Shown here piece by piece: positions 5,689-23,268 of a stretch of 23,773 nucleotides of DNA. The notes under the pieces are model-generated. The model did no database searches. It was not told the DNA's origin and worked only from the letters and a program-made list of their open reading frames with translations. The stretch is from positions 1 through 23,773 of the IMG/VR virus record IMGVR_UViG_3300028844_001719; one strand, given 5' to 3'. The position numbers and the translations under genes were made by a program. This DNA is from a virus. Each line of letters opens with the position of its first letter. Position 1 is the stretch's first letter.

Positions 5689-5949
5689 ATGAATGAAATA
5701 CCAAAATCCGAATTGGATTATTACAAATACCGAGTCACCTTGTTAAGAGAACAGGTTGACTTACTCAAACAAAGTGTTGGATATGGTCTGCCTGATTATA
5801 TCATTCCGGTTGTAAACGACGAAGAAGTCGTGGATCATCTACTAGACATTCGAGAAAATATAAATACATTCTTGAAACGATTCAATTATCCTATCTTTTC
5901 TTCGGAAGATGAAAGTAATGAAATGGTTCACGACAAACAAGTAGAGTAA
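5689..5949 (+). CDS. Conserved-looking hypothetical protein
   Basis: 86 residues, not recognised. The N-terminal half is a probable amphipathic or coiled-coil helix (residues 8-28, Y-Y-K-Y-R-V-T-L-L-R-E-Q-V-D-L-L-K-Q), followed by an acidic segment and a second helix ending in NTFLKRFNYPIF. No membrane segment, cysteine or catalytic motif is visible. It is first in the unit that includes ferredoxin (1 nt gap) and SNase, and is driven by the promoter at 5654-5682. A TATAAATA octamer at 5859-5866 lies inside it. Confidence 0.7.
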   Translation: MNEIPKSELDYYKYRVTLLREQVDLLKQSVGYGLPDYIIPVVNDEEVVDHLLDIRENINTFLKRFNYPIFSSEDESNEMVHDKQVE

Positions 5950-6893: not shown

Positions 6894-7810
6894 CATTATT
6901 TAAATCCATTTTTGACAACAAGACTGATAAGTCTATGTCTTTTGATTCGTTTGAGAAGTTTGAGGGACTTCTCTACGATCTTAGTAAACAGCCAGGATAC
7001 AAACCAAAGAAGGGCGATTTCCGTCAAGGTTCTCCTCTGATTAGTCCGGCGTCTTACGAAAGTAACACCACAAGAAAAAACACCAACGTGATTCAATGGA
7101 ATCGTTGGGCGGCGCTGGATGTGGATGAGTATGACTCGACGTTTGAGGATGCGTTACGAGTCTTTGAAGATCACTACTTCATCTGTTACTCATCTGCATC
7201 CAGCACAAAGGAGAAACCAAAGTTTCGAATTGTTCTGCCTCTTACGGATGTTGTACCTTCCGATAAGATTCGTCACTTCTGGTTTGCCCTCAACACCGAG
7301 TTCAATTCTCTGGGTGACAAACAAACCAAAGACTTGAGCCGAATGTATTATGTTCCGGCTCAGTATCCGAACGCCAACAATTTTATCTTCACCAACAAAA
7401 AGGACTTTCTGAATCCTAAAGAATTGATGAAGAAACACGAGTATGTCGAAGGATTCCGCAACAGTTTTCTTGATTCCATTCCAGAACATATGAGAAAGGA
7501 ACTTGATGAACATCGTAAGAATCAGCTGACAAACACCAACATTGTTTGGTCTACCTATCGTGACTGCCCCTTTGTCAACAAGAGGATGATCGCTGAATAC
7601 CGGACAATCACCGAGACAGGATGGTACTCAAAGATGTATCAGATCATGGTCTCAATCGCTTCAAATGCGATCAAGTCCAAGTATCCGATCACTCCAGAGG
7701 AAGTTTCTCGTCTCTGTAAGGAGATCGACCTTGAGACGGGTAATTGGTACAAACAAAGACCGATGACAATGGAAGCTGGAAGGGCGATTTCCTACGCTCT
7801 TTCTCAGTGA
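6881..7810 (+). CDS. Putative AEP (primase-polymerase)-like replication protein
   Basis: 309 residues from GTG 6881; an internal ATG at 6935 would remove SLTLFKSIFDN, which looks like a genuine family N-terminus. Features consistent with the archaeo-eukaryotic primase fold: a hDhD-type motif (ALDVDEYD, D80 and D82), a basic strand KFRIVLPL (residues 114-121) after SSAS, and D-x-S-R-x-x-Y-x-P (from D151), similar to the third AEP/RepS motif. The C-terminal helical segment (250-309) resembles PriCT-like tails. No Walker motif. It may prime or initiate replication; motif-level evidence only, and the active-site His of motif II is not clear. Confidence 0.55.
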   Translation: MYSLTLFKSIFDNKTDKSMSFDSFEKFEGLLYDLSKQPGYKPKKGDFRQGSPLISPASYESNTTRKNTNVIQWNRWAALDVDEYDSTFEDALRVFEDHYFICYSSASSTKEKPKFRIVLPLTDVVPSDKIRHFWFALNTEFNSLGDKQTKDLSRMYYVPAQYPNANNFIFTNKKDFLNPKELMKKHEYVEGFRNSFLDSIPEHMRKELDEHRKNQLTNTNIVWSTYRDCPFVNKRMIAEYRTITETGWYSKMYQIMVSIASNAIKSKYPITPEEVSRLCKEIDLETGNWYKQRPMTMEAGRAISYALSQ

Positions 7811-7812
7811 AT

Positions 7813-7869
7813 CTTTTACACTTTTTTTACTATGTAAGCTCTTGACTTCTGTACAGGATAGTGTAGAGT
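7813..7869 (+). promoter_or_regulatory. Early promoter with upstream twin box
   Basis: Upstream boxes CTTTTACA (7813-7820) and TTTTTTAC (7823-7830), then -35 TTGACT (7842-7847), 16-bp spacer and -10 TAGAGT (7864-7869). The predicted +1 is 7876, the A of the downstream ATG. The box arrangement recurs at 8157, 8741 and 17527. Confidence 0.75.
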
Positions 7870-7875
7870 GTAGGT

Positions 7876-8154
7876 ATGATTAAGAGAGTTACTAAAGAAA
7901 CAGTTAAAGAGGCGCTTGTTGCCGCCATCAAACTTCCAGAAAACCGTTTCGAAGACGGTTCTTTGAACTGGAATTTCATCGATGCTGATACCTACATCGA
8001 AGTCTTCGAACCAGAAGGGGCCCCTCGTCCATGTGTGCGACTAGTCTGCGAGCGTGATAAGGAGAAGTTTTATGAATACTTCGATGAATTGGTCTCGGAG
8101 ATTCCTCCAGATCTTCGGCCTAAAGCGACACACAAGTACGGTCGGTTCTGGTAA
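7876..8154 (+). CDS. Hypothetical early protein
   Basis: 92 residues, not recognised. The N-terminus is a basic helix (IKRVTKETVKEALVAAIKL); the middle is a mixed strand region with YIEVFEPEGAPRPCVRLVC; the end is proline-rich (SEIPPDLRPKATHKYGRFW). No membrane segment or catalytic signature. Its own early promoter and small size suit an early host-takeover or regulatory gene. The start is set by the promoter spacing: ATG falls at the predicted +1, with no Shine-Dalgarno. Confidence 0.7.
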   Translation: MIKRVTKETVKEALVAAIKLPENRFEDGSLNWNFIDADTYIEVFEPEGAPRPCVRLVCERDKEKFYEYFDELVSEIPPDLRPKATHKYGRFW

Positions 8155-8156
8155 AG

Positions 8157-8212
8157 CATTTACAAGTTTTTTACAAAAATAGGGTTGACATTCAATAAAA
8201 TTAGTTTAGAGT
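8157..8212 (+). promoter_or_regulatory. Early promoter with upstream twin box (copy 2)
   Basis: CATTTACA (8157-8164), TTTTTTAC (8167-8174), -35 TTGACA (8185-8190), 16-bp spacer, -10 TAGAGT (8207-8212). Predicted +1 is 8219, the A of the ATG. From ACAAAAATAGGG through the -10 it is almost identical to the promoter at 8769. Confidence 0.8.
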
Positions 8213-8218
8213 ATAGAC

Positions 8219-8497
8219 ATGATCACGATTGAAGAAGAAAGAAAACGCCTCTCAGGTTACATTAACACTTTCGCGACGGTCTTCGGGCCCGATGGAAAAG
8301 ATCACGGCACGATTCGTCTTACGGAAGATAGGGTTCACTACTCCGATGGTTACGCCATCCACTTTGATTACCCTCTCGAAAAAGCGGTTGCGGTAGTCAA
8401 CTTCTTTAAGAGCGCCGGTTCTCGGATCGGCCCCTTCTATAGTTACGATCACAACAATGGTGGTTTGCGCCCTGGCCCTAACACTCCCATCAACTAG
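8219..8497 (+). CDS. Hypothetical early protein
   Basis: 92 residues, not recognised. An acidic-basic N-terminal helix (TIEEERKRLSGYINTFATVF) leads into short strands with GTIRLTEDRVHYSDGYAIHF and a Gly/Pro-rich tail ending GGLRPGPNTPIN. The F-K-S-A-G-S segment near the end has no clear match. Starts at the predicted +1 of the promoter immediately upstream; followed after 17 nt by another small gene with a normal AAAGGAAA ribosome-binding site. Confidence 0.7.
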   Translation: MITIEEERKRLSGYINTFATVFGPDGKDHGTIRLTEDRVHYSDGYAIHFDYPLEKAVAVVNFFKSAGSRIGPFYSYDHNNGGLRPGPNTPIN

Positions 8498-8514
8498 TAA
8501 GAAAGGAAAAAATT

Positions 8515-8757
8515 ATGGCAATGAACGTTTACGAAAATACTCCTCTCGATTTCCGAATCGAATCGCGATTTGTAAAAAGACCGGGCGAAACCAGAAATTT
8601 CAATTGGTCACTTATGTGGTCGTTTACTACGAAGGATCAGGCGGTTGCAATGATCGAGACTCTTCGAAACAGCGAGTATGCAACACGAGAAGATTGTGAC
8701 ACTCCCATCGAGGAATATCGTCTTACAGCGGTTGACTCCTCTTTTACAAATAATTAA
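8515..8757 (+). CDS. Hypothetical small early protein
   Basis: 80 residues, not recognised. ATG 8515 is preceded by AAAGGAAAAAATT, a standard Shine-Dalgarno, unlike its leaderless-looking neighbours, so it is probably co-transcribed from the promoter at 8157-8212. It contains strands FRIESRFVKR and NWSLMWSFTT, then a helix KDQAVAMIETLRNSEYA, the look of a small alpha/beta protein. The last codons overlap the upstream box (8741-8748) of the next promoter. Confidence 0.7.
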   Translation: MAMNVYENTPLDFRIESRFVKRPGETRNFNWSLMWSFTTKDQAVAMIETLRNSEYATREDCDTPIEEYRLTAVDSSFTNN

Positions 8758-8796
8758 CAAAAATAGGGTTGACATTCAACAAAATTGGTTTAGAGT
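8741..8796 (+). promoter_or_regulatory. Early promoter with upstream twin box (copy 3)
   Basis: CTTTTACA (8741-8748), TAATTAAC (8751-8758), -35 TTGACA (8769-8774), 16-bp spacer, -10 TAGAGT (8791-8796). Here the predicted +1 (8803) is 24 nt before ATG 8827, so this copy gives a normal short leader. Confidence 0.8.
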
Positions 8797-8826
8797 AATA
8801 ATAGAAACTGAGATAAGAAATATATT

Positions 8827-9177
8827 ATGGCATACATGAACAAAGAACGAAAAGCGGAGCGAGCTCCTGCTATCAAGAAAATCCTTAAAAAGTACGGTCT
8901 TAAGGGATCGTTATCGGTTCGAAATTACTCGACTCTTGCTCTGAAAATCAGGGACATTCGCGGTCTCTTTGAGAGTCACATGGACGACTTCAAGAGAGTG
9001 TGGGGATTGTCAATCAATCCTTATCACTACAACAATTTCTCTCCAGAGATCACCAAGTTGTTCGACGAGCTGACTGCGGCGATGTACGGAAAGGATTACT
9101 TCAACGAGAGTGATGCTATGACAGATTACTTTCATGTCAGTCATTACATCTCAATTGATGTTCTTCCTGCTAAATAA
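8827..9177 (+). CDS. Conserved T4-like phage hypothetical protein
   Basis: 116 residues. The N-terminus MAYMNKERKAERAPAIKKI, then LKKYGLKGSLSVRNYSTLAL, and a C-terminal AMTDYFHVSHYISIDV block look like a conserved hypothetical protein family of marine T4-like phages (pattern recalled, not searched). The basic first 40 residues, rich in Lys and Arg, could bind nucleic acid; this is a guess. Followed closely by the small gene at 9180. Confidence 0.75.
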   Translation: MAYMNKERKAERAPAIKKILKKYGLKGSLSVRNYSTLALKIRDIRGLFESHMDDFKRVWGLSINPYHYNNFSPEITKLFDELTAAMYGKDYFNESDAMTDYFHVSHYISIDVLPAK

Positions 9178-9179
9178 GT

Positions 9180-9338
9180 ATGAATGGCAAAGGAAGCAAG
9201 AGGCGATTGGAACAGATTTCCGATGCACAGATGCAGGAAAACTGGGACAAAATTTTCGGTAAAGCGGAGGACAAGAAAAACTATGATAGACGAAAAAATC
9301 CTATCAATTCTCGAAAGAGAACAAAATCGACAGACTGA
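9180..9338 (+). CDS. Small conserved basic protein (MNGKGSK family)
   Basis: 52 residues from ATG 9180. The start M-N-G-K-G-S-K-R-R followed by ENWDKIFGK is a pattern seen in small conserved proteins of marine T4-like phages. The tail after residue 32 is basic (KNYDRRKNP, SRKRTK). It begins 2 nt after the preceding gene and its last 56 nt overlap the start of the SHMT gene in another frame, whose Shine-Dalgarno (GCGGAGGA) lies within it. Function unknown. Confidence 0.65.
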   Translation: MNGKGSKRRLEQISDAQMQENWDKIFGKAEDKKNYDRRKNPINSRKRTKSTD

Positions 9339-10371
9339 TACTGTTGAACTTATCGCGAGTGAAAACTTCGCGAGCCAAGAGGTAATGGATTTGTGTGGAA
9401 GTGTCTTCACAAATAGAAGTGTCTTCACAAATAAGTACGCCGAAGGATATTCCGGTAAACGTTATTACAACGGATGCGATCATATGGACGAGATCGAGGA
9501 TCTAGCCATCGAAAGGGCAAAGTCTCTCTTTGGTTGTAAGTACGCAAATGTCCAACCACACTCGGGCGCCAACGCGAACACCGCCGTCTATCAAGCATTT
9601 CTGAAACCTGGCGATGTCCTTCTGGGTATGGATCTTGCTTCAGGTGGTCATCTATCACATGGAAGTCCGCCGAACATATCCGGTAAAATTTACCACTCAT
9701 ATTCCTATGGTGTGGATGATGAAGGTCTCTTGGACTATGATGCAATCGAGGAACAAGCCCTAGCAATAAAACCAAAAATGATTGTTGCGGGGGCGAGTGC
9801 CTATCCAAGACAAATTGACTTTTCGCGATTCTACGAAATCGCACAAAAGTGTGGAGCATATCTCCTTGCAGACATCGCACACTATTCTGGATTGATTGCA
9901 GGATCTGCTTATGAGAGTCCCTTTCCTTATGCAGATGTAGTCACTTCGACAACTCACAAGACTCTTCGAGGGCCACGAGGTGGAATCATTTTGTGGAACA
10001 AGAGAGAGTACAATCGGAGAATCAACAGTGCAATTTTTCCAGGCACTCAAGGTGGCCCACTGATGCATATCGTTGCGGCAAAGGCACAATGTTTTCACGA
10101 GGCGTTGCAACCCGAGTTTGAAACCTATGCGGTCAATGTCATTGAAAACGCAAAGGCGATGGGAAAGGTCTTTCGGAAACGAGGTATCAAAATTCAAACG
10201 AATGGAACAGATAGTCACATTCTTTTGTTGAATCTAACTAAGAGTAAGTACAGTGGGCGTGAAGCCGCTGATCTTCTTGAAGAGAATGGTATCACAGTCA
10301 ACAAGAATGGGATTCCAAACGATCCAAGATCATTCACCGAGACGAGCGGAATACGAATCGGCACTGCGTGA
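9283..10371 (+). CDS. glyA: Serine hydroxymethyltransferase, C-terminally truncated
   Basis: PLP enzyme converting serine and tetrahydrofolate to glycine and 5,10-methylene-THF, the one-carbon donor for dTMP synthesis. ATG 9283 is preferred over the in-frame 9184 because the family N-terminus (TVELIASENFAS) fits it and GGAGGA lies just upstream. Hallmarks present: KYAEGYSGKRYY, QPHSGANAN, the PLP-lysine motif TTHKTLRGPRGG and SGIRIGTA with the substrate-binding Arg. Two defects: a 6-residue tandem duplication (SVFTNRSVFTN) right before KYAEGY, and a stop immediately after SGIRIGTA. At 362 aa it lacks about 50 C-terminal residues (E. coli GlyA 417). Activity is doubtful; it may be a decaying gene or a minimal form. 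Confidence 0.85.
   Translation: MIDEKILSILEREQNRQTDTVELIASENFASQEVMDLCGSVFTNRSVFTNKYAEGYSGKRYYNGCDHMDEIEDLAIERAKSLFGCKYANVQPHSGANANTAVYQAFLKPGDVLLGMDLASGGHLSHGSPPNISGKIYHSYSYGVDDEGLLDYDAIEEQALAIKPKMIVAGASAYPRQIDFSRFYEIAQKCGAYLLADIAHYSGLIAGSAYESPFPYADVVTSTTHKTLRGPRGGIILWNKREYNRRINSAIFPGTQGGPLMHIVAAKAQCFHEALQPEFETYAVNVIENAKAMGKVFRKRGIKIQTNGTDSHILLLNLTKSKYSGREAADLLEENGITVNKNGIPNDPRSFTETSGIRIGTA
9398..9433 (+). repeat. Perfect 2 x 18-bp tandem duplication inside SHMT
   Basis: GAAGTGTCTTCACAAATA occurs twice in direct succession (9398-9415 and 9416-9433), in frame. It adds six residues next to the conserved active-site loop KYAEGY. Identity is 100%, so it is either recent or an assembly error. 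Confidence 0.95.
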
Positions 10372-11497: not shown

Positions 11498-12319
11498 ATG
11501 ATCAGAAATCTTCTTACCGATCATATTAAGAATAACGCCCCCGATAATGAGATTGCGGTCTTGTTGTCGGGAGGCGTTGATTCTTTGTCTTGTGCAATCT
11601 CCGCCACAGATGCTGGTAAAACCGTAAACGCTTATTCCTTTCATCTTGACGGTAATGAGAGTTATGATTTTCACAAAGCCAAAGAGGTGTGTGAGATCAT
11701 GGATTGGAACTTTACTGGAGTTTCAGTTCCTCTGGATAATCTGGAAGAAGACTGGTTTCATTTGATGAATGAAATTGGATGTAAGAAAAAGACTCATTAC
11801 GAGTGTGTATGGCCATTTCTCTATGTTTACCCGAAGATCAAAGAAAAGTATGTTTTGACAGGCTGGGGTGCTGACGGTTATCACGGAGTCAGTAAAAAAG
11901 CAGTGATGCATTACAAGCACACTAAGGAAAAGTTTGATCAATTTCGAGATGAATATTTTCTACCAGAAAAGACGGCAGGGCTCAATTGGCACTTGACATT
12001 ATCAGAAAGGTATGATACTATTATGGTCAATCCTTTCTTAGATGAGAAAGTAAAAAAATATTTCTATCAATTCACATGGGACGAGTTAAACATTCCAAAA
12101 CAGAAACAACATATTCGAGATGATTTTCCGGAGCTAAATAGCTTTGGAAATGTCAAACCACATTTAAACTTACAACTTGCGTCTGGAGTAGATGACGTAT
12201 TTCTCACACTGCTTGATAACAAGAAAATCAATTTCAACAACCGAGAAAGAATTATGGACATCTGTAGAGACTGGAACATCAGAAACAACATAGTATCTTT
12301 AGAACAATTTTATGTATAA
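11498..12319 (+). CDS. Stand-alone asparagine-synthetase-like PP-loop ATPase
   Basis: 273 residues. PP-loop signature AVLLSGGVDSLSCAISA (SGGVDS at 24-29) for ATP adenylation, then YVLTGWGADGYHGVSKK (121-134), equivalent to the vL.GdGaDE.fgGY block of AsnB, and NPFLDEKVKKYFYQF with a later Lys-rich K-Q-K-Q-H-I-R segment. This is the synthetase half of asparagine synthetase; the N-terminal glutaminase domain is missing, so the amine donor is not glutamine hydrolysed in cis. Expected chemistry is adenylation of a carboxylate followed by amide formation. AT-rich like the ParB-like gene; overlaps the methyltransferase by 8 nt. A DNA-bound carboxymethyl substrate is proposed in the findings. Confidence 0.78.
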   Translation: MIRNLLTDHIKNNAPDNEIAVLLSGGVDSLSCAISATDAGKTVNAYSFHLDGNESYDFHKAKEVCEIMDWNFTGVSVPLDNLEEDWFHLMNEIGCKKKTHYECVWPFLYVYPKIKEKYVLTGWGADGYHGVSKKAVMHYKHTKEKFDQFRDEYFLPEKTAGLNWHLTLSERYDTIMVNPFLDEKVKKYFYQFTWDELNIPKQKQHIRDDFPELNSFGNVKPHLNLQLASGVDDVFLTLLDNKKINFNNRERIMDICRDWNIRNNIVSLEQFYV

Positions 12320-13463
12320 ACCATACAAGTTACAGGATGTAATTGAAGCATCAAATCAAAACAAATTCAAAGTAATATCTACCTTTGCTGGTGGAGGTGG
12401 TTCTTCGACTGGTTATCGACTTGCCGGAGGAAATGTTCTTTGCATCAACGAGTTCGTTGAAGAAGCTCAGAACACTTATGCACAGAACTATCCGAACACT
12501 CCTATCATTCCAGGCGACATCAAAGAACTGAAGGGTTCAGATTTTCTGGATCTCGTTGGTCTCAAGGAGGGTGAGTTGGATATTCTTGATGGGTCGCCTC
12601 CTTGCTCTGCTTTTTCTGTTGCCGGAAAACTTTCTCATTCGTCGGGCGGAAGTCATTCGGATGGATGGGGACAAACCAAGAACTATTCTGATGGTAAGAT
12701 CGTTGAGAACATCGAAGATCTTTTCTTTGAGTTTCTTCGTGTCGCAAAGAACATTCAACCAAAGGTGATTGTTGCGGAAAATGTCAAAGGGTTGACTATC
12801 GGAGAAGCCAAAGGATACATGAAGCGTATTCTCAAGACCTTTGAAGAGATCGGATATTCTCCTTCTTATGAGGTTCTGGATTCTCGATACTATGGTGTTT
12901 CTCAAACGAGGACTCGTGTTATCTTTATTGCGATTCGTAATGACGTGATGGATGAAGTCGGTTTGAACTTTATGACAATCGGTCATGTGTTTCCGGAGCC
13001 GAGCAAAGAAGTCATTCCTTTGAAAGATGCTCTGGTTGGTCTGGAATACGATAAAGAAGAGGTTCAATACTTGACAGACAAGTTCACAAAAACAGCCTAC
13101 TGGAAAGATACGGGATCTAAGATGGAGACCTTTCCAAAGAAGGTTTTGACTGGAGGAGACTACCATCCGAAAGGTCATCACTTCAATCTCAAGAGAGTTT
13201 CTCTGGAAGTTCCTGCTCCAACCTTGACTGCTATGGGAAGTGGTGACACGACTGCCGGTGCATTTCATTGGAGTGAAAAAAGAAAGTTGACATTAGGCGA
13301 ATTAAAGCGTATTATGTCTTTGCCTGATGATTTTAAACTAACTGGAAAATGGAATCAACGTGCCGAACGCTGTGGCCGCATGGTTCCTCCTCTAATGATG
13401 AAAAAGATTGCAGAAGCAGTCTACGAAAATGTTCTAAAAATATACAATGAAAAACACACCTGA
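12312..13463 (+). CDS. C5-cytosine DNA methyltransferase, predicted carboxymethyltransferase
   Basis: 383 residues. C5-MTase motifs in order: I FAGGGGSSTGYRLAGG (25-40), II with ribose-binding E47 (CINEF), IV GSPPCSAFS (catalytic C98), VI AENV (155-158), VIII QTRTR (198-202), a target-recognition region around 250-315, IX-like RIMSLPDDF, and X RCGRMVPPLM. In motif X the near-invariant Asn of GNxVPP is Arg (R356). This residue borders the methyl donor; its Lys substitution in M.MpeI allows carboxy-SAM use. The gene overlaps the PP-loop ligase (8 nt) upstream and the CmoA homologue (17 nt) downstream. It is solidly a C5-MTase; donor choice is inference. After the first ~80 nt its codon use matches the phage core. 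Confidence 0.92.
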   Translation: MYKPYKLQDVIEASNQNKFKVISTFAGGGGSSTGYRLAGGNVLCINEFVEEAQNTYAQNYPNTPIIPGDIKELKGSDFLDLVGLKEGELDILDGSPPCSAFSVAGKLSHSSGGSHSDGWGQTKNYSDGKIVENIEDLFFEFLRVAKNIQPKVIVAENVKGLTIGEAKGYMKRILKTFEEIGYSPSYEVLDSRYYGVSQTRTRVIFIAIRNDVMDEVGLNFMTIGHVFPEPSKEVIPLKDALVGLEYDKEEVQYLTDKFTKTAYWKDTGSKMETFPKKVLTGGDYHPKGHHFNLKRVSLEVPAPTLTAMGSGDTTAGAFHWSEKRKLTLGELKRIMSLPDDFKLTGKWNQRAERCGRMVPPLMMKKIAEAVYENVLKIYNEKHT

Positions 13464-14166: not shown

Positions 14167-14606
14167 ACGATCAGTGGAAAAACAGATATTATGATCTTGC
14201 TGGTGAAGTTGCCACTTGGAGTAAAGATCCATCGAAAAAGGTAGGTGCGATAATCGTAGGAAAACATGGTCAAGTTCTCTCACAGGGATACAATGGATTT
14301 CCAAGAGGTATGGACGACGATCCGAAATACTACGATGATCGAGAAAGAAAGTATGAAAGGATTGTTCATGCGGAAGCGAATGCGATCTACAACGCAACAC
14401 GCAACGGAGTTTGTTTGGATGGGTCTACGATGTTTGTCTACGGTCTTCCAATTTGTCACGAATGTGCAAAGGCTGTTATTCAGGTAGGAATTTCTGAAGT
14501 GGTGATGAAGTGGGAGAAGATTCCGTATAAGTGGCAAAAAAGCTGTCATTTGGCGGAAAAATTCTTTGACGAATCAAAAGTTAAACGCACTTACCTAGCC
14601 CCCTAA
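14163..14606 (+). CDS. cd: dCMP deaminase
   Basis: 147 residues from ATG 14163, which overlaps the preceding stop as ATGA; the frame is open further upstream but those codons lie inside the CmoA gene. Zinc and catalytic motifs: IVHAEANAI (HAE) and PICHECAKAV (PC..C). An N-terminal S-K-D-P-S-K-K-V-G-A-I-I-V strand and SQGYNGFPRG loop are typical of deoxycytidylate deaminases. It converts dCMP to dUMP for dTTP synthesis. It ends just before a weak hairpin with a T run. Confidence 0.94.
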   Translation: MNDQWKNRYYDLAGEVATWSKDPSKKVGAIIVGKHGQVLSQGYNGFPRGMDDDPKYYDDRERKYERIVHAEANAIYNATRNGVCLDGSTMFVYGLPICHECAKAVIQVGISEVVMKWEKIPYKWQKSCHLAEKFFDESKVKRTYLAP

Positions 14607-14628
14607 GTGTTCGCCTTTTTTTTTCTTT
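14587..14628 (+). terminator. Possible weak terminator after dCMP deaminase
   Basis: CACTTA (14588-14593) pairs with TAAGTG (14604-14609), with a 10-nt loop, followed after a few bases by TTTTTTTTTCTTT. The stem is short and overlaps the end of the coding sequence, so it would be inefficient. Confidence 0.35.
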
Positions 14629-14654
14629 ACAAACACCTAAAAATGTGGTATCCT
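14626..14654 (+). promoter_or_regulatory. Sigma70-like promoter of uvsX
   Basis: TTTACA (14626-14631), 17-bp spacer, TATCCT (14649-14654); predicted +1 near 14661, giving a 13-nt leader to ATG 14674. It lacks the CTTTTACA twin box seen at four other promoters. Confidence 0.5.
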
Positions 14655-14673: not shown

Positions 14674-15662
14674 ATGTCATTACTAAGTAAACTCAAAAAG
14701 TCTTCTCGGATTAGTGCATCAGATATTCTGTCTGATTCTAAGTTTTTTGCCGAGAAGGAACAAACACCAACTTCGGTGCCAATGATCAATGTGGCACTCC
14801 GTCAAAACACTTCAAGACATCCTTTGCCCTTCTGATGGCATCGTCGTATCTTGATCGACACGAGGATGCGGTTCTTCTCTTCTATGATTCGGAGTTTGGA
14901 TCGCCGCAGTCTTACTTCAAATCCTTTGGTATTGACACAAGTCGAGTTCTTCACAGTCCGGTAACGAACATCGAAGAGTTAAAGTTCGATCTGGTCAATC
15001 AACTCAATGAGATCGAAAGAACTGATAAGGTTATTGTTGTGATTGATTCGGTTGGTAATATCGCATCTAAGAAGGAACTTGATGACGCTATGAATGAGAA
15101 GTCTGTTGCGGATATGACAAGAGCAAAGGCTCTGAAGGGTCTCTTCCGCATGATCACTCCTCAGTTGACGATGAAGGACATTCCTCTTCTTGCGGTCAAT
15201 CACACGTATATGGAACAGGGAATGTTTCCAAAGGCGATTGTCTCGGGTGGAACGGGTGTTATGTATTCCGCCGACAATGTGTGGATCATCGGTCGTCAAC
15301 AGGATAAGAAGGGAACAGAGATTCAGGGATATCACTTTATCATCAACGTTGAGAAGTCTCGATTTGTTCGAGAGAAGTCAAAGATTCCGATCTCAGTCTC
15401 GTGGGATGGTGGTATTCAAAAGTGGTCTGGTCTTTTGGATGTGGCGCTTGAATCCGGTCACGTTCGTAAACCAAAGAACGGCTGGTATCAGGCAATGAAT
15501 CCTGAAACGGGCGAAGAACTTTCTCAGAATCTTCGAGAAGCTCAAACCATGAATCGCCTATTCTGGGAAAAGGTTTTTGAGAAGACCGACTTTGAATCTT
15601 ACATCGAAAAGCGTTTCAAGGTTGCAAGCAAGGATATGATACAGGAGCAAATCGAAGAATGA
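14674..15662 (+). pseudogene. uvsX: Recombinase UvsX (RecA-like) with internal deletion and frameshift
   Basis: Strand-exchange ATPase of T4-like phages for recombination-dependent replication. The first frame (ATG 14674) encodes the proper N-terminus (SLLSKLKKSSRISASDIL, VPMINVAL) but then shifts and stops at TGA 14833-14835. The rest of UvsX continues in another frame from about 14793: Walker A G-T-P-S-K-H-F-K-T, SFALLMASSYL, LLFYDSEFG, Walker B VIVVIDS, NHTYMEQ, NVEKSRFVREKSK, to TGA at 15662. Compared with T4 UvsX, the segment between NVAL and the P-loop (about 17 residues) is missing, consistent with a ~52-nt deletion. ATG 14835 can restart translation but omits Walker A. Either a real lesion or an assembly error. 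Confidence 0.85.
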
Positions 15663-18077: not shown

Positions 18078-18085
18078 TATAAATA
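18078..18085 (+). promoter_or_regulatory. T4-type late promoter of the head/internal-protein block
   Basis: Exact TATAAATA in the intergenic stretch after the metallopeptidase gene, 26 nt before ATG 18112. It marks the switch from early/middle to late genes. Confidence 0.8.
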
Positions 18086-18111: not shown

Positions 18112-18408
18112 ATGTTAAAGTTTAAAGAATTTTTATCAGAAGAAGTCAATCTATCCGATTTCCCCAAAGGAGTCTTTGGTGGCTTACCAGTTAAAAAAAA
18201 GAGCGAAAACAGTAGAACAGCTGTATTTGTCGTTAAATCGAAGGATATTCCAAAAGATAAAGAAAAGATCTTAGGTAATCTTCTTCGGGCCGGCGAAAGT
18301 GCAAGCGGTGATTATGGCGAAATGCGGATCCGAGTGAATCCAAAGGTCTTGCGTGGCGAGAAAGGAATTTCGAAAAAAATAATTAACATAGACTTCAAAA
18401 AAGGTTAA
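18112..18408 (+). CDS. Short paralogue of the downstream gene, with capsid-targeting peptide
   Basis: 98 residues from ATG 18112 (an in-frame ATG at 18103 would add MGS). The first ten residues MLKFKEFLSE match the T4 internal-protein capsid targeting sequence (IPIII: MKTYQEFIAE), cleaved after L/I-x-E by the prohead protease. The whole protein is homologous to the first ~100 residues of the next gene, about 90% identical in DNA over the first 121 nt, then diverging. It looks like a partial tandem duplication kept as a separate gene. Function unknown; probably packaged in the head. Confidence 0.75.
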   Translation: MLKFKEFLSEEVNLSDFPKGVFGGLPVKKKSENSRTAVFVVKSKDIPKDKEKILGNLLRAGESASGDYGEMRIRVNPKVLRGEKGISKKIINIDFKKG

Positions 18409-18532
18409 GTGATGTTAAAGTTTAAAGAATTCTTATCAGAAGAAGTCAAACTATCCGATTTCCCCGAAGGAGTCTTCGGTGATTTACCAGTTGAAAAAAA
18501 GAGCGAGAACAGTAAAACAACCGTATTTGTCG
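18112..18532 (+). repeat. Direct repeat: duplicated 5' gene segment
   Basis: Positions 18112-18232 recur at 18412-18532, 300 bp apart, with about 11 differences in 121 nt by eye, a mix of silent and replacement changes. Repeat units are the first 40 codons of two adjacent genes. Confidence 0.9.
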
Positions 18533-19704
18533 CTAGATCTAATGATCGTCTCACAGATAGAGATGAGATCGCACGTAATCTTCTTCAGGCTGGACTAAAT
18601 GCACAGGTAAGAGAAAAATCCGGTCAATCGGTAGATCCAGTCCACATAGATTCAGGATTTGATAGTAAAATCATCATACTGGTCAAACCTCTTTCGGGTG
18701 GAATAGGAGAAACAACTCTCAATTCATCAATTACAGAATTGTTTCCAGCAATTGCATGGGAGACACGATACAATCCCACCGAAAACGTTGATGACTTTTA
18801 CGACCATCTCCTTAAACAAGATCCCAAGAAGCTCAAATCAGTAAATCCGAAAGATCTAAAGGCGGCAATCGATACTATTCAAAAAGCATCCGAATCTTCA
18901 AAGTTCAACGAGAAGATGTTGAATGCAGTGGGAGTTCTTAAATATATCAAAAATGAAGAATCCTCAAAGTCGATTAAAATGGTTCATTGGGGATATCGAG
19001 CCAAACCCAAAGGTGTTCCAAAAAATCATCCGGGCGATATCTTTTTAGAGTTCAATGATGGAACAATACTTGGAGTTTCTCTTAAGGCCGGAGGAAAGAA
19101 AACAAAAGAACCAAAACTTAACACCTACGTGAACCCCATCTTCAATTCTTTTGGACAGTCTCGAATGATCAAATCTCTTCGTGAAAACCTTTGGGATAGA
19201 GTCTATTCAGAAATTGAAGGAATTCCAAGTAAGAAGGCGTATGATGGTTCGGGAAGAAGACAAACCTCGAAGGCCTTGGTCGATCTCTTCAAAAAAGATT
19301 CTAAAAGATACGAAAGACTCTACGACGAATCACTTGATATTTGCCGTAAGGCGGTGATAGATCTTTTTAATCAGGATAAGGATAAAACTTTGGATTACAT
19401 TCGCAGTGAGATACTAAGAGATGCTCCCGAAGTTCCCACAAAGGTAATTAAAGCAGTAAAGAACGAATATGAGGAGATCACTGCCGACGATGAGTTGGGT
19501 GTTTTTCTTCCGTTGGTTCGTTTCATTCGGGCATATGCATCAACCACTTCAAAACAGAATTGGTTTATTGATTTGAAATCTAAAGATTCTACTGTTACAA
19601 TGGAAATGTCCATACGCACCAATAAGGCTGGAAATGCAGGATCAAAAAAGCTGGGTCAGTTTTTCAACCTCTCTGTCAAATACAACTCCTTGAAGGTAAA
19701 GTAA
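18412..19704 (+). CDS. Predicted head-internal protein with nuclease-like motif
   Basis: 430 residues from ATG 18412 (GTG 18409 is in frame and adjacent). The N-terminus MLKFKEFLSE is a T4-type capsid targeting peptide. The middle has PGDIFLEF-NDG-TILGVSLKAGG (PGD followed by SLK), resembling the PD-(D/E)xK nuclease core with Ser in place of Glu, then KLNTYVNPIFNSFG. The C-terminal end (LFNQDK to SVKYNSLKVK) is unrecognised. If packaged, it would enter the cell with the DNA. Nuclease activity is an inference from one motif. Overlaps the next gene by 1 nt (TAATG). Confidence 0.65.
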   Translation: MLKFKEFLSEEVKLSDFPEGVFGDLPVEKKSENSKTTVFVARSNDRLTDRDEIARNLLQAGLNAQVREKSGQSVDPVHIDSGFDSKIIILVKPLSGGIGETTLNSSITELFPAIAWETRYNPTENVDDFYDHLLKQDPKKLKSVNPKDLKAAIDTIQKASESSKFNEKMLNAVGVLKYIKNEESSKSIKMVHWGYRAKPKGVPKNHPGDIFLEFNDGTILGVSLKAGGKKTKEPKLNTYVNPIFNSFGQSRMIKSLRENLWDRVYSEIEGIPSKKAYDGSGRRQTSKALVDLFKKDSKRYERLYDESLDICRKAVIDLFNQDKDKTLDYIRSEILRDAPEVPTKVIKAVKNEYEEITADDELGVFLPLVRFIRAYASTTSKQNWFIDLKSKDSTVTMEMSIRTNKAGNAGSKKLGQFFNLSVKYNSLKVK

Positions 19705-20939
19705 TGATAGGATTTCAAGAGTTCCTGGCCGAGTCAAAGGCTGGCAAGAATGTCCACATGACACACATCGAAGATCGTGTGATCTACGGTGGTGTGACTG
19801 GTGCGAGAGATGCAATCGCTGCTCTTCGTGCGTTTCGCGATATGTTGGCGGGACAGGGTAAGAGTCGATTCGATGTAACAGTCAAGTGGGATGGAGCTCC
19901 CGCAGTCTTTGCCGGAACTGATCCAAGTGATGGTAAGTTCTTCGTTGCAAAGAAAGGAATTTTCAATAAGGATCCAAAGGTCTACAAGTCAGAAGCCGAT
20001 GTTCGTGCTGATACTTCCGGAGATCTTGCGGATAAACTCGTAACAGCGTACAATGAATTGAAAGATCTTGGAATTAAAGATGTGATTCAAGGCGATATTA
20101 TGTTTACAAAGAATGATCTTAGCGTTGAGAATATCGACGGTGAGAAGTACGTAACATTCCAACCAAACACAATCGTCTATGCAGTACCCGTCAAGTCCAA
20201 TCTAGCAAAAACCATAATGAAGGCAAACTTAGGTGTGGTCTTTCATACAACCTACACAGGAAAATCCTTTGAGGAAATGAAAGCATCATACGGAGTAGAC
20301 ATCGGTAAACTTAAGAAAAAAACTTCTATATGGTATCAGGACGCGGATTACAAGGATCAAAGCGGAACAGCAACACTCACAGACACAGAAACAAGAGAGG
20401 TAACGGAGGCACTATCAAAAGCCGGAAAGATATTTCAAAAGATAGCGGGCACTACGTTGCGTCAACTCCAATCAAACAGCGAGCTCGCTGGATACATCGA
20501 GACCTTCAACAATTCTTTGGTGCGGAGAGGCGAGAGGATACAGAACACGGGGAAACATGTGAACGATTTAATCCTTTGGTTTGAAGATAAGTTTGGTAAG
20601 GAAATGGAGAAGAGAAAGACCGAAAAGGGTAAAGCCGGAGTACAGGCAAAACTTGATGAGGTTATGAAGTTCTTCTCAAAGGACAATAAGAAGAACTTAG
20701 ATCTGGTCTTTGCTCTACAGAACGCACTTGTCGATGCAAAACTTCTTATCATTTCAAAACTTGATAAGGTCAAGGAACTTGACACTTTCGTAAGAACTCG
20801 AAACGGTTTCAAAGTCACGGGCAGTGAAGGTTTTGTTGCGATAGACAAGACGAACGACGGTGCCGTAAAACTTGTGGATCGTATGGAGTTCTCAATGAAT
20901 AATTTTTCAAAGGATGTAGTCAAAGGTTGGGAGAGATAA
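19704..20939 (+). CDS. Nucleotidyltransferase/ligase-like protein with capsid-targeting peptide
   Basis: 411 residues. The first ten, MIGFQEFLAE, fit the T4 capsid targeting sequence with cleavage after Glu10. The following domain has covalent nucleotidyltransferase motifs: VTVKWDGAPAVFAG (motif I K-x-D-G, K61), VIQGDIMF (III-like, 128-134), NTIVYAVPV (IIIa-like), SEGFVAID (IV, E375-G376) and AVKLVDR (V, K389). The order fits DNA/RNA ligases that attach AMP to the motif I lysine. A central helical, Lys-rich insertion (about 240-355) is unusual. It may repair or seal nucleic acid at infection onset; the substrate is unknown. Confidence 0.72.
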   Translation: MIGFQEFLAESKAGKNVHMTHIEDRVIYGGVTGARDAIAALRAFRDMLAGQGKSRFDVTVKWDGAPAVFAGTDPSDGKFFVAKKGIFNKDPKVYKSEADVRADTSGDLADKLVTAYNELKDLGIKDVIQGDIMFTKNDLSVENIDGEKYVTFQPNTIVYAVPVKSNLAKTIMKANLGVVFHTTYTGKSFEEMKASYGVDIGKLKKKTSIWYQDADYKDQSGTATLTDTETREVTEALSKAGKIFQKIAGTTLRQLQSNSELAGYIETFNNSLVRRGERIQNTGKHVNDLILWFEDKFGKEMEKRKTEKGKAGVQAKLDEVMKFFSKDNKKNLDLVFALQNALVDAKLLIISKLDKVKELDTFVRTRNGFKVTGSEGFVAIDKTNDGAVKLVDRMEFSMNNFSKDVVKGWER

Positions 20940-20942
20940 ATA
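20935..20942 (+). promoter_or_regulatory. Possible late promoter (GATAAATA)
   Basis: One mismatch from TATAAATA, overlapping the preceding stop codon and ending 5 nt before the GTG start at 20948, the same spacing as in front of regA. Confidence 0.4.
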
Positions 20943-20947
20943 ATACA

Positions 20948-22705
20948 GTGAAATCATTTATACAGTACAACGAGGATAAGAAGAAGGAAGTAGTATTCAC
21001 TTTTGGTCGGTTCAATCCACCGACAACAGGCCACGAGAAGTTGATGAACAAACTTGCATCGGTTGCGATTGGCAGCAACTATCGTGTGTACGCATCTCAC
21101 TCCAACGATGCCAAGAAAAATCCTCTTCAGTACGATGAGAAGGTAAAGATTATGCGTAAGATGTTTCCAAAGCACGGAAGGAACATCATTCTCGATTCGC
21201 GAATCAAGAACGTCTTTGATGTGGCTACTTCTCTTTACGATCAGGGATACACTCGTATCGTAATGGTTGTTGGATCGGATCGTGTTGCCGAGTTCCGTAA
21301 ACTTCTCAACAAGTATGTTGGAGTCAAGGGACGGCACGGTTTCTACGAGTTTCCGGATGGTATTGATGTAATCTCCGCCGGTGAAAGAGATCCCGATGCA
21401 GAAGGTGTGACAGGAATGAGCGCCTCTAAGATGAGAGCGGCCGCAGTTGCAGGTGACTTCAAATCCTTTTCTCAGGGTCTACCGAGATCCTATGGTGAGG
21501 ATATGACACTCTTTAACCTACTTCGTAAGAGAATGGGATTGAAGGAAAAGGTCAACTTTCGCAAACACATTCAGTTGCCACAGTTGTCTACCATTCGTGA
21601 AAGATATGTTGCGGGTGACATCTTCAATGTTGGAGATACCGTTTACTCGGGTAACAACGAAATCACCATTGCTGAAAGAAGAACAAATTTCATCATTGAC
21701 ACCAACGAAAACAAACACTTCGTTGATAGTCTTTCCGAAGTTCGACAGGACAAAGATGTAAAAGATCGTAAGGGAACACAGCCCGCAAAGTATTACGGAA
21801 AAGATGCCAAAGGAAAGGATATGAAGAAGTCCACTAAGGCAGCTAGAGCTCGTCACTTTGAGAAGGGTGCGAAGAAGTCCGACGAAGATCCTTCGGCATA
21901 CAAACCCGCTCCGGGCGATGCATCCGCCAAGACGAAACCTTCGAAATACACTCAGGCAATGAAGAAAAAGTTTCCGGAGTTGTACAAGGAAGAAGTCACC
22001 GCAAAACAACTTGCAGATCTTGAGAAGTTCGGAGATCGCCTCTTGAATAAGTTCGACATTGACATTGAATTTACAAAACATTTTGCGGATCGTATGAATG
22101 ACAAACGCAACAAACCAGCTATCACAGTTCAGGAGTTGCAAAGGTTGTTCAAGAAGATCGCAAGGAACAAAGGAAAGAACATCAAGAAACATGGAGACGC
22201 CGAAGCAGTTCTGAAGGACATACAGTCCGATCTCAATCTACCTGTTGTGGTTGATTTCAAGAACGGAGAGTTTGAAGTCACAAACAAAACGATTATGCGT
22301 AAGAAAGATTTTAAAACAACGGATCCAGTCCTTGCGTATGAAGATCTCAATCTTGACGAAAACGATAAGGCAAAACTCTATAAGTTATACACGAAGGCAA
22401 TGAAACACATGCCGAATTCTCCTGCTCAGTTGAGGATACGTAAGGAGATTGAAGAACTTCGTAAGAAGATGAAACTTGACGAATCCTCCGCAGACAAATC
22501 CATTGCAAAAAAGGCAAAGGCTTCTGGCATCTCTGCATCCATACTGAAACAGGTTTACAAGAGAGGTGTGGCCGCATGGAGAACAGGACATCGCCCCGGT
22601 ACAACACCGGAACAGTGGGGACACGCCCGAATCAATTCGTTTATCACGGGTGGAAAGACAAGAACAACTGCCGACGCTGATCTCTGGAAGAAACATAAGG
22701 GATAA
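20948..22705 (+). CDS. Cytidylyltransferase-like multidomain virion-associated protein
   Basis: 585 residues from GTG 20948 (TTG 20927 is in frame but lies within the previous gene). The N-terminus MKSFIQYNE vaguely resembles a capsid targeting peptide. Residues 15-200: nucleotidyltransferase fold with FTFGRFNPPTTGHEKLM (T-x-G-H form of HxGH) and GMSASKMRAAA, the ISSTxxR-like motif of NadM/CoaD-type enzymes. Then a Lys-rich linker, a FTKHFADRMNDKRN domain (about 375-440), and a C-terminal AAWRTGHRPGTTPEQWGHAR segment followed by INSFITGG, typical of phage structural-associated proteins. Role unknown; NAD-type nucleotide chemistry on infection is possible. Confidence 0.7.
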   Translation: MKSFIQYNEDKKKEVVFTFGRFNPPTTGHEKLMNKLASVAIGSNYRVYASHSNDAKKNPLQYDEKVKIMRKMFPKHGRNIILDSRIKNVFDVATSLYDQGYTRIVMVVGSDRVAEFRKLLNKYVGVKGRHGFYEFPDGIDVISAGERDPDAEGVTGMSASKMRAAAVAGDFKSFSQGLPRSYGEDMTLFNLLRKRMGLKEKVNFRKHIQLPQLSTIRERYVAGDIFNVGDTVYSGNNEITIAERRTNFIIDTNENKHFVDSLSEVRQDKDVKDRKGTQPAKYYGKDAKGKDMKKSTKAARARHFEKGAKKSDEDPSAYKPAPGDASAKTKPSKYTQAMKKKFPELYKEEVTAKQLADLEKFGDRLLNKFDIDIEFTKHFADRMNDKRNKPAITVQELQRLFKKIARNKGKNIKKHGDAEAVLKDIQSDLNLPVVVDFKNGEFEVTNKTIMRKKDFKTTDPVLAYEDLNLDENDKAKLYKLYTKAMKHMPNSPAQLRIRKEIEELRKKMKLDESSADKSIAKKAKASGISASILKQVYKRGVAAWRTGHRPGTTPEQWGHARINSFITGGKTRTTADADLWKKHKG

Positions 22706-23268
22706 TGAAGAATTTTAAAGAACATTTTGTGTTTGAGTCCATAGTCGAAATGGCAAAGAGAGAGATTCCCTTTGTCGATAACATCTATCGGCCTGGATCA
22801 GATCGTTACTTTGAATTCTTTCGCGAGACCCGAGAACTTTGGTTAGAGGGAAAGATCGAACTCAACGATATCAACGAAGACATCATCAAGACTGACATCG
22901 GAGAGATCTCCAAGTATAAGGGATATGAAGTCCCGTTAGACTGGCCAATGGTCGAGTCAATTGAAGATTGGAATGAGTCGCTCAACGAAGAGGATCCAGA
23001 ACTGAACAAACCCAAAAGAGGTGGTAACAAAAAGTTCTATGTTTATGTTCGAGATCCTCAAACAAAGAACATCAAGAAGGTTTCCTTTGGGGATACGACG
23101 GGTCTCAAGGTAAAACTCAACGATCCCAAGGCGAGGAAATCCTTCGCAGCTCGTCATAAATGTGACACGAGAGACGATAAAACAAAACCATCCTATTGGT
23201 CTTGTCGTCTACCTCGTTTCGCGAAATCTTTAGGTATGCAAGTTGATAATCCAAATGGATGGTGGTAG
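22705..23268 (+). CDS. Conserved phage protein (KKFYVYVRDP / YWSCRLPR domain)
   Basis: 187 residues. ATG overlaps the previous stop (TAATG). The N-terminus MKNFKEHFVFE is reminiscent of the capsid targeting peptides upstream, though less regular. The C-terminal half has KKFYVYVRDPQTKNIKKVSF, then ARKSFAARHKCDT, YWSCRLPR and a terminal NPNGWW, a domain recurrent in marine T4-like phages (recalled). The two cysteines and histidine could bind metal. Function unknown; probably virion-associated. Confidence 0.72.
   Translation: MKNFKEHFVFESIVEMAKREIPFVDNIYRPGSDRYFEFFRETRELWLEGKIELNDINEDIIKTDIGEISKYKGYEVPLDWPMVESIEDWNESLNEEDPELNKPKRGGNKKFYVYVRDPQTKNIKKVSFGDTTGLKVKLNDPKARKSFAARHKCDTRDDKTKPSYWSCRLPRFAKSLGMQVDNPNGWW

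Follow-up and report, generated by a model that had tools for sequence, protein, structure and literature searches.

Candidate T4-type capsid-targeting peptides on enzyme-like proteins at the end of a T4-like replication cluster

The IMG/VR virus record IMGVR_UViG_3300028844_001719 is a fragment of 23.8 kb (23,773 nucleotides) from a marine T4-like phage, and the window analyzed here is the entire record. It carries a T4-like replication cluster that ends with five consecutive plus-strand genes (18112-23268), referred to as genes 1 to 5 and listed with their features in Table 1. The encoded proteins begin with short peptides (tags) that resemble, to different degrees, the capsid-targeting sequence (CTS) of phage T4. 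It is probable that the products of this late operon are targeted to the prohead by the CTS, cut by the prohead protease gp21, kept in the head, and co-injected as enzymes. The set had been predicted to end at 22749, but gene 5 actually reaches 23268.

Table 1. Genes and predicted features of the tagged cluster (window positions).
Feature	Position	Strand	Remarks
Gene 1	18112..18408	+	98 aa, tagged; truncated tandem copy of the gene-2 start
Gene 2	18412..19704	+	430 aa, tagged; phrog_2496
Gene 3	19704..20939	+	411 aa, tagged; DUF6267
Gene 4	20948..22705	+	585 aa, GTG start; mosaic
Gene 5	22705..23268	+	187 aa; C-terminal W-S-C-R domain (phrog_7595)
Predicted capsid-targeting peptide MLKFKEFLSE, gene 1	18112..18141	+	
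Predicted capsid-targeting peptide MLKFKEFLSE, gene 2	18412..18441	+	
Predicted capsid-targeting peptide MIGFQEFLAE, gene 3	19704..19733	+	
Variant of the targeting peptide, MKSFIQYNE (F4, Y7, E9), gene 4	20948..20974	+	
Loosely similar N-terminus MKNFKEHFVFE, gene 5	from 22705	+	
Putative T4-type late promoter TATAAATA	18078..18085	+	ahead of the tagged operon

In T4 IPIII, the first ten residues suffice for loading into the head, positions 4 and 7 serve in targeting, and positions 8 and 10 serve in processing (PMC9026906). The N-termini of all five proteins were the same when read again. Aromatic residues occupy positions 4 and 7 in genes 1-4, and the hydrophobic residue 8 with E10, as in the L/I-x-E rule of gp21, is present in genes 1, 2, and 3. 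The proposed likeness of genes 1-3 to the T4 CTS and its cleavage rule thus holds at F4/F7, hydrophobic 8, and E10. Two further starts had been described as similar: gene 4 can be kept as a variant with N8 and E9, whereas gene 5 has H7 and fits poorly. The original prediction also spoke of three consecutive tagged proteins, and the sequences stand but their independence does not, since gene 1 duplicates gene 2, with identity at 83 of the first 90 nucleotides and 129 of the first 150. The two genes, gene 1 being a truncated tandem copy of the gene 2 start, represent one event and were rejected as independent tagged proteins. In 48 gene-2 loci, some of them truncated by the end of the contig, no second upstream copy appeared as an extra tblastn stretch.

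The residues that define the tag are retained among homologues. Loci were taken from IMG/VR, all 48 for gene 2 and 80 of 263 for gene 3, and the N-termini were aligned on the anchor [FY]-x-x-[FYHIM], which partly fixes positions 4 and 7 and leaves positions 8 and 10 independent. The anchor is fitted by 22 of 24 distinct N-termini of gene-2 homologues, which have F/Y4 in 22/22, F/Y7 in 21/22, L/I8 in 19/22, and E10 in 20/22. For gene 3, 51 of 56 distinct N-termini fit, with F/Y4 in 51/51, F/Y7 in 49/51, L/I/V8 in 47/51, and E10 in 40/51. The rest of the ten residues drifts in relatives while F/Y4, F/Y7, L/I8, and E10 are retained, and as these are the positions mapped in T4 IPIII, their retention counts in favor of a CTS. 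Gene-4 homologues fit the anchor in 24 of 36 distinct N-termini, all 24 with F/Y7; most have N or S at position 8, and 17 of the 24 have E at position 9, which amounts to a shifted register. Some nevertheless show the canonical register, for example MIKDFKSYLTEE. Homologues of gene 5 mostly lack such a start, a tag-like N-terminus being kept in close relatives only, and gene 5 was rejected as a convincing CTS protein. In the structural models of genes 2 and 3, the tag precedes the folded domain and is unstructured or of low confidence.

The tag was also counted with the strict pattern M-x(1,2)-[FY]-x-x-[FYIL]-[ILVMF]-x-E. Among the 31 called genes of the window, about 0.06 matches are expected when residues 2-15 are shuffled; two were observed at called starts, in addition to gene 1 at its second ATG. 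None of the other called genes matches, including all those upstream of 18103. A search across genomes, which the original prediction had proposed, gave 27 strict matches in 12 T4-like genomes or fragments against 1.7 expected by the same shuffling, and the highest total in 500 shuffles was 6. T4 itself has three matches, namely ipII, ipIII, and gp61.1, and T4 IPI starts with MKTFKEF and keeps F4/F7. The negative controls lambda, T7, P-SSP7, and S-CBWM1 have no strict match in 305 called genes and no match to gp21. The genes of most genomes were called in the present analysis by a program whose start choices are possibly off, and the count for S-CREM2 was therefore repeated with annotated coding sequences (CDS).

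One of the T4 matches, gp61.1, is a hypothetical protein of 54 aa (T4 record 18966-19130, minus strand) that adjoins primase and starts with MKTFKEFIKE. Given its full CTS match, it may be an unrecognized internal head protein; a literature search by name gave one unrelated paper.

A late promoter lies ahead of the cluster. The late promoter is TATAAATA in T4 and NATAAATA in the phage S-PM2 (PMC2984593), and the T4 octamer begins 34 nucleotides before the gene 1 ATG (18112). Of 27 distinct stretches that precede gene-2 homologues, 21 contain it within 150 nucleotides of the gene; the corresponding numbers are 1 of 62 (gene 3), 2 of 52 (gene 4), and 0 of 9 (gene 5). Being common before gene 2 and rare before genes 3 and 4, the octamer heads the operon. 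The window contains five such octamers, all on the plus strand, where about 0.2 are expected. Those at 1313, 18078, and 23527 lie between open reading frames (ORFs), the one at 1741 overlaps the end of an ORF that stops at 1745, and the one at 5859 is within an ORF.

The protease gp21 (Peptidase S77) was found in 4/4 named relatives and 3/5 IMG/VR relatives. The major capsid gene of this phage lies outside the window, and the capsid cleavage peptide was read in relatives, within the first 65 residues of the major capsid protein. FLTE is present in C48C1, G001, and G002, where T4 also has FLTE; the corresponding peptides are FLAE in S-SCSM1, ILTE in S-SZBM1, LLTE in S-CREM2, FLSE in Melnitz, and FLGE in HTVC008M. 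The DLP6 major capsid protein gave no match to the search pattern. These cleavage peptides match the tag ends FLSE, FLAE, FITE, and YLEE. Small proteins with tag-like starts are encoded right before gp21 in C48C1 (14434-14631, MRTFKELREA), G001 (50007-50204, MKTFQQIRES), and G002 (95993-96205, MKTYKNLITE), where they occupy the core-protein position. By blastn of one stretch against phages, contig G001 is close to C48C1, an observation of which no further use was made.

Gene 1: no match to Pfam or PHROG was obtained for this protein.

Gene 2: The protein matches phrog_2496 with E 2e-111, and D209 and S223-x-K225 are invariant in an alignment of 20 sequences. Its model has a pLDDT of 84.4, with 37 over the first ten residues. 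Foldseek ranks the restriction enzyme HinP1I first, a weak match (E 6.4e-3, root-mean-square deviation [rmsd] 9.7), and the VIA-align rows are mostly nucleotidyltransferases with Z up to 8.9 that cover residues 1-97 only. Residues 20-122 resemble the N-terminal domain of S-SCSM1 gp282, which is annotated as a virion protein (hhalign probability 95%); gp282 belongs to phrog_1462 and not phrog_2496, the likeness is found in the N-terminal domain only, and its membership in the gene-2 family was rejected. From sequence and model, gene 2 would be nuclease-like at best.

Gene 3: The protein matches Pfam PF19782 (DUF6267) with E 7.3e-105, and the domain starts at residue 16, behind the tag. K61-W-D63-G64, E375-G376, and K389 are invariant in 24 sequences; K-x-D-G, E-G, and the lysine are presumably motifs I, IV, and V in the numbering of the ligase superfamily. 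The AlphaFold2 model has a pLDDT of 79.5 (below 50 for residues 1-19) and a pTM of 0.72. All 50 PDB rows listed for it are RNA or DNA ligases, the best being a middling match (Z 7.7, rmsd 3.8, 180 residues aligned). Since ligases alone occupy the 50 rows listed, gene 3 is likely an RNA-ligase-like nucleotidyltransferase.

Gene 4: PF01467 scores 24.6 bits against a curated cut-off of 21, and PHROGs 3041, 395, and 23027 and PF19141 also match, with phrog_23027 at 352-462 and DUF5824 at 515-578. By sequence, the protein looks NMNAT/cytidylyltransferase-like. PHROG 455 has matches to gene 3 over profile positions 20-341 and to the gene-4 domain over 419-722, and the family therefore includes a form that combines the two parts. 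Of the enzyme-like domains initially named, the ligase-like one of gene 3 and the cytidylyltransferase-like one of gene 4 are borne out, whereas PD-(D/E)xK in gene 2 is hinted at and nothing more.

The tag behaves as a movable module. Standalone DUF5824 proteins have 12 distinct N-termini, of which 8 carry a full tag (MTSSFKEFITE twice, MNINFEQFISE, MIKFSQFITE, MITFKKYLEE, MINFKQYLSE, MIKFKKYLEE, and MISFKKYLEE), 1 a partial tag, and 3 none. When DUF5824 is fused behind the gene-4 domain, a single shared tag is located at the front of the protein, and in Melnitz the gene-4 and gene-5 domains are fused behind one tag-like start, MKKFSEIIEA. Tags also occur on unrelated domains, including P-loop-containing proteins in G001 and G002 and the SAM lyase and kinase of S-CREM2. 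DUF6267 orthologues without a tag are S-SZBM1_141, which starts with MAKNTHLEHLED, and S-CREM2 gp87, which starts with MNKATKPLTHIEH. The DUF6267 domain of S-SCSM1 begins within two codons of the annotated start, which leaves no room for a tag. A tagged DUF6267 protein (MMKFTQFLAE) is encoded at 12001-13236 of the stretch examined from DLP6, a soil Stenotrophomonas phage, and the tagged enzyme is therefore not restricted to marine hosts.

Published virion proteomes of T4-like cyanophages contain tagged relatives of these proteins. In S-CREM2, 52 of the 219 CDS are virion proteins (PMC10665884), and four of the 219 match the strict pattern, namely gp6 (SAM hydrolase), gp14 (APH/ChoK-like kinase), gp136, and gp154 (cytidylyltransferase). 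All four are in the virion proteome (p 2.9e-3; 2.7e-4 among the 193 non-structural proteins), and without the cytidylyltransferase the result is 3/3 (p 0.012; 0.002 among non-structural proteins). Allowing L at position 4 adds gp13, a virion protein, and gp175, which is not (5/6), and a looser pattern gives 5/9 (p 0.037). The S-SCSM1 NMNAT starts with MKSFLQFLKE and is found in virions (PMC9602691); the tagged gp030 is not annotated as a virion protein. For this phage, 47 proteins annotated as virion among 282 CDS were counted by eye, and the paper gives 45. The NMNAT lies within a run of five consecutive virion-annotated proteins between helicase and nrdA, which is also the position of the tagged cluster in the window. 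In S-SZBM1, with 30 virion proteins of 218, the cytidylyltransferase _140 starts with MRFRQFIIEA and is found in virions (PMC9146016); three further tagged proteins (_191, _192, and a 63-aa ORF) are not among the virion proteins. Matches in S-SZBM1 and S-SCSM1 were taken from a gene caller, alternative starts included. Orthologues of gene 4 are thus virion proteins in three phages, with the tags MKNFSSFLTE, MKSFLQFLKE, and MRFRQFIIEA. Over S-CREM2 (4/4), S-SCSM1 (1/2), and S-SZBM1 (1/4), 6 of 10 tagged proteins were detected in virions (combined p 0.0035). A further case is the kinase of S-CRM01, which begins with MISFDQFLSE and, according to PMC10665884, has been reported from virions. S-CREM1, with 14 virion proteins, offered no usable list and was left out of the counts.

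DUF6267 is absent from the virion proteins of S-CREM2, S-SCSM1, and S-SZBM1, and the gene-3 orthologues that lack a tag (S-SZBM1 and S-CREM2) are not virion proteins. S-SZBM1_139 was considered as a virion DUF6267 homologue and dropped, as DUF6267 corresponds to the untagged and undetected _141. The literature searched yielded no virion proteome for any phage whose DUF6267 protein is tagged, and the available part of the DLP6 paper contains no virion proteomics.

Two virion proteins, one of S-CREM2 and one of S-SCSM1, carry CTS-like stretches away from residue 1. The Cas9-like gp12 (7704-10313 of the S-CREM2 stretch) has LRFASFMAEA at residues 17-26, and its N-terminus, like those of two relatives (3922-4473 and from 3016), shows R-W-x-x-W and then, near residues 17-26, a CTS-like stretch. 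Such an N-terminus may reflect a start called at the wrong position or a tag of greater length. The 69-aa gp279 of S-SCSM1 (9627-9836 of the stretch examined) has the CTS-like RTFKEFLEYIE at its C-terminus.

By sequence, genes 2 and 3 appear to belong to the T4 CTS system, and targeting is well supported for them; it is plausible for gene 4, which fails at the processing positions, and weak for gene 5, which fails at targeting. Targeting by a CTS is favored because the mapped positions are kept, the capsid cleavage peptide is alike, a late promoter is present, and tagged relatives occur in virions. In the proposed mechanism, the first ten residues would dock the protein on the prohead core via the aromatics 4 and 7, and gp21 would cut after the L/I-x-E that ends at position 10, so that the mature protein is released within the head. 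Gene 4 would perhaps be targeted yet poorly cut. The mature proteins would stay in the head and be delivered along with the DNA when the next host is infected; the presence of tagged relatives within purified particles suggests that the enzymes are probably shipped in this manner. The cargo would comprise the RNA-ligase-like nucleotidyltransferase of gene 3, the NMNAT/cytidylyltransferase-like protein of gene 4, and the possibly nuclease-like protein of gene 2, with gene 1 as a truncated duplicate of the gene 2 N-terminal domain. As a guess, the RNA-ligase-like and NMNAT-like enzymes might on arrival repair the RNA damage and NAD loss caused by host defense.

Several observations weigh against this interpretation. 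Four of the ten tagged proteins were undetected in the three proteome phages, and when the three cytidylyltransferases already known at the time the pattern was settled are removed, 3/7 are left with a combined p of 0.11. The authors of two of the proteomes state that enzymes may remain in the CsCl-purified suspension (PMC10665884, PMC9602691), and no proteomics of the present phage was found. Non-structural virion proteins without the strict tag also exist (S-SCSM1 gp282 and gp280; S-CREM2 gp155, gp156, and gp160; S-SZBM1_139), and the tag is therefore not the sole route into the virion. HTVC008M has no strict match in 193 called genes despite having homologues. Within the cluster itself, gene 4 lacks the processing residues at 8 and 10 and gene 5 fits poorly. 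gp21 is also missing from the window, the record being a fragment of just 23.8 kb.

Among other explanations, tag-packaged proteins could act inside the head, assembling the core or condensing DNA in the way suggested for IPIII, with no enzymatic role after injection. Loss of IPIII in T4 causes head defects (PMC9026906), and the small tag-like proteins that adjoin gp21 in C48C1, G001, and G002 are in line with such a role. On the other hand, the catalytic motifs of gene 3 are invariant, the cytidylyltransferase domain of gene 4 is above the Pfam cut-off, and the cargo varies by phage (kinase, SAM lyase, ligase-like), as would better suit effectors directed at the host; a purely in-head function is thus unlikely. 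It is far less probable that the peptide is another sorting or interaction signal, such as membrane or replisome docking, that merely resembles the CTS: the window genes do follow replication genes and not head genes, but the virion proteome of S-CREM2 is enriched in tagged proteins, the motif ends in a site also present in the capsid protein, and the operon is headed by a late promoter. Chance or common descent, with short F-rich starts being common in AT-rich phages, is scarcely credible, for although genes 1 and 2 are duplicates and genes 4 and 5 rely on a loose pattern, the 27 matches far exceed the shuffled number, the four phages without a gp21 match have none, and the tag lies outside the Pfam domain, is missing in untagged orthologues, and precedes unrelated domains.

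The preferred reading, CTS-directed packaging with co-injection, can be compared with known systems. Like the T4 CTS, the tag comprises the ten N-terminal residues, has aromatic residues at 4 and 7, and includes a gp21 site that ends at E10, and the same pattern recovers T4 ipII and ipIII. The T4 CTS is removed after docking to the prohead core and works on foreign cargo, and a general suggestion has been made that it enables T4-like phages to package various proteins (PMC9026906). In contrast to T4, where the cargo consists of small basic proteins, the cargo here is large and enzyme-like, the late operon lies beside replication genes, and different phages have different modules. The virion enzymes of T4-like cyanophages (cytidylyltransferase/NMNAT, APH/ChoK-like kinase, SAM hydrolase, and Cas9-like nuclease) include gene-4 orthologues, and the SAM hydrolase, kinase, and cytidylyltransferase of S-CREM2 are strict-tagged at residue 1. 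The papers on these enzymes report detection and leave the loading mechanism open, and their available parts mention no targeting peptide. As an analogue, in the Dar system of phage P1 (DarB), a large anti-restriction protein enters the head by means of an N-terminal signal (PMC9024508). What is new is that marine T4-like phages would use the CTS for a set of enzymes and that virion enzymes previously left unexplained match it; no paper linking a CTS to cyanophage virion enzymes was found in a search that left most subscription papers and all preprints outside.

Cyanophage virion enzymes have been found repeatedly without explanation, contamination not being excluded by the authors, and the tag offers a mechanism that predicts the loaded proteins and their cleavage sites. 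If true, the injected proteins of abundant marine phages could be read from sequence, and the tags would be natural peptides for cargo loading into phage heads. A more speculative extension, put forward with considerable doubt, is that T4-like ocean phages use one transferable N-terminal code to mark a pre-loaded repair and counter-defense kit that acts before the expression of any phage gene, and the injected proteome would then be predictable from sequence alone. In such a kit, the RNA-ligase-like protein would mend cut RNA, the NMNAT-like protein would restore NAD, and nuclease-, kinase-, and SAM-lyase-like proteins would be the cargo of other members.

Upstream of the tagged genes, the window contains ORFs that are taken to be clamp-loader-like, regA-like, DNA-polymerase, and DnaB-like-helicase genes, as judged from their position. 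UvsX was identified by Pfam and seems broken (14674-15662), with its start in the ORF 14674-14835 and the remainder in another frame from 14835. As its RecA match starts only at profile position 80, the part with the first ATP-binding motif is apparently missing, and the break appears to be a deletion or an assembly error.

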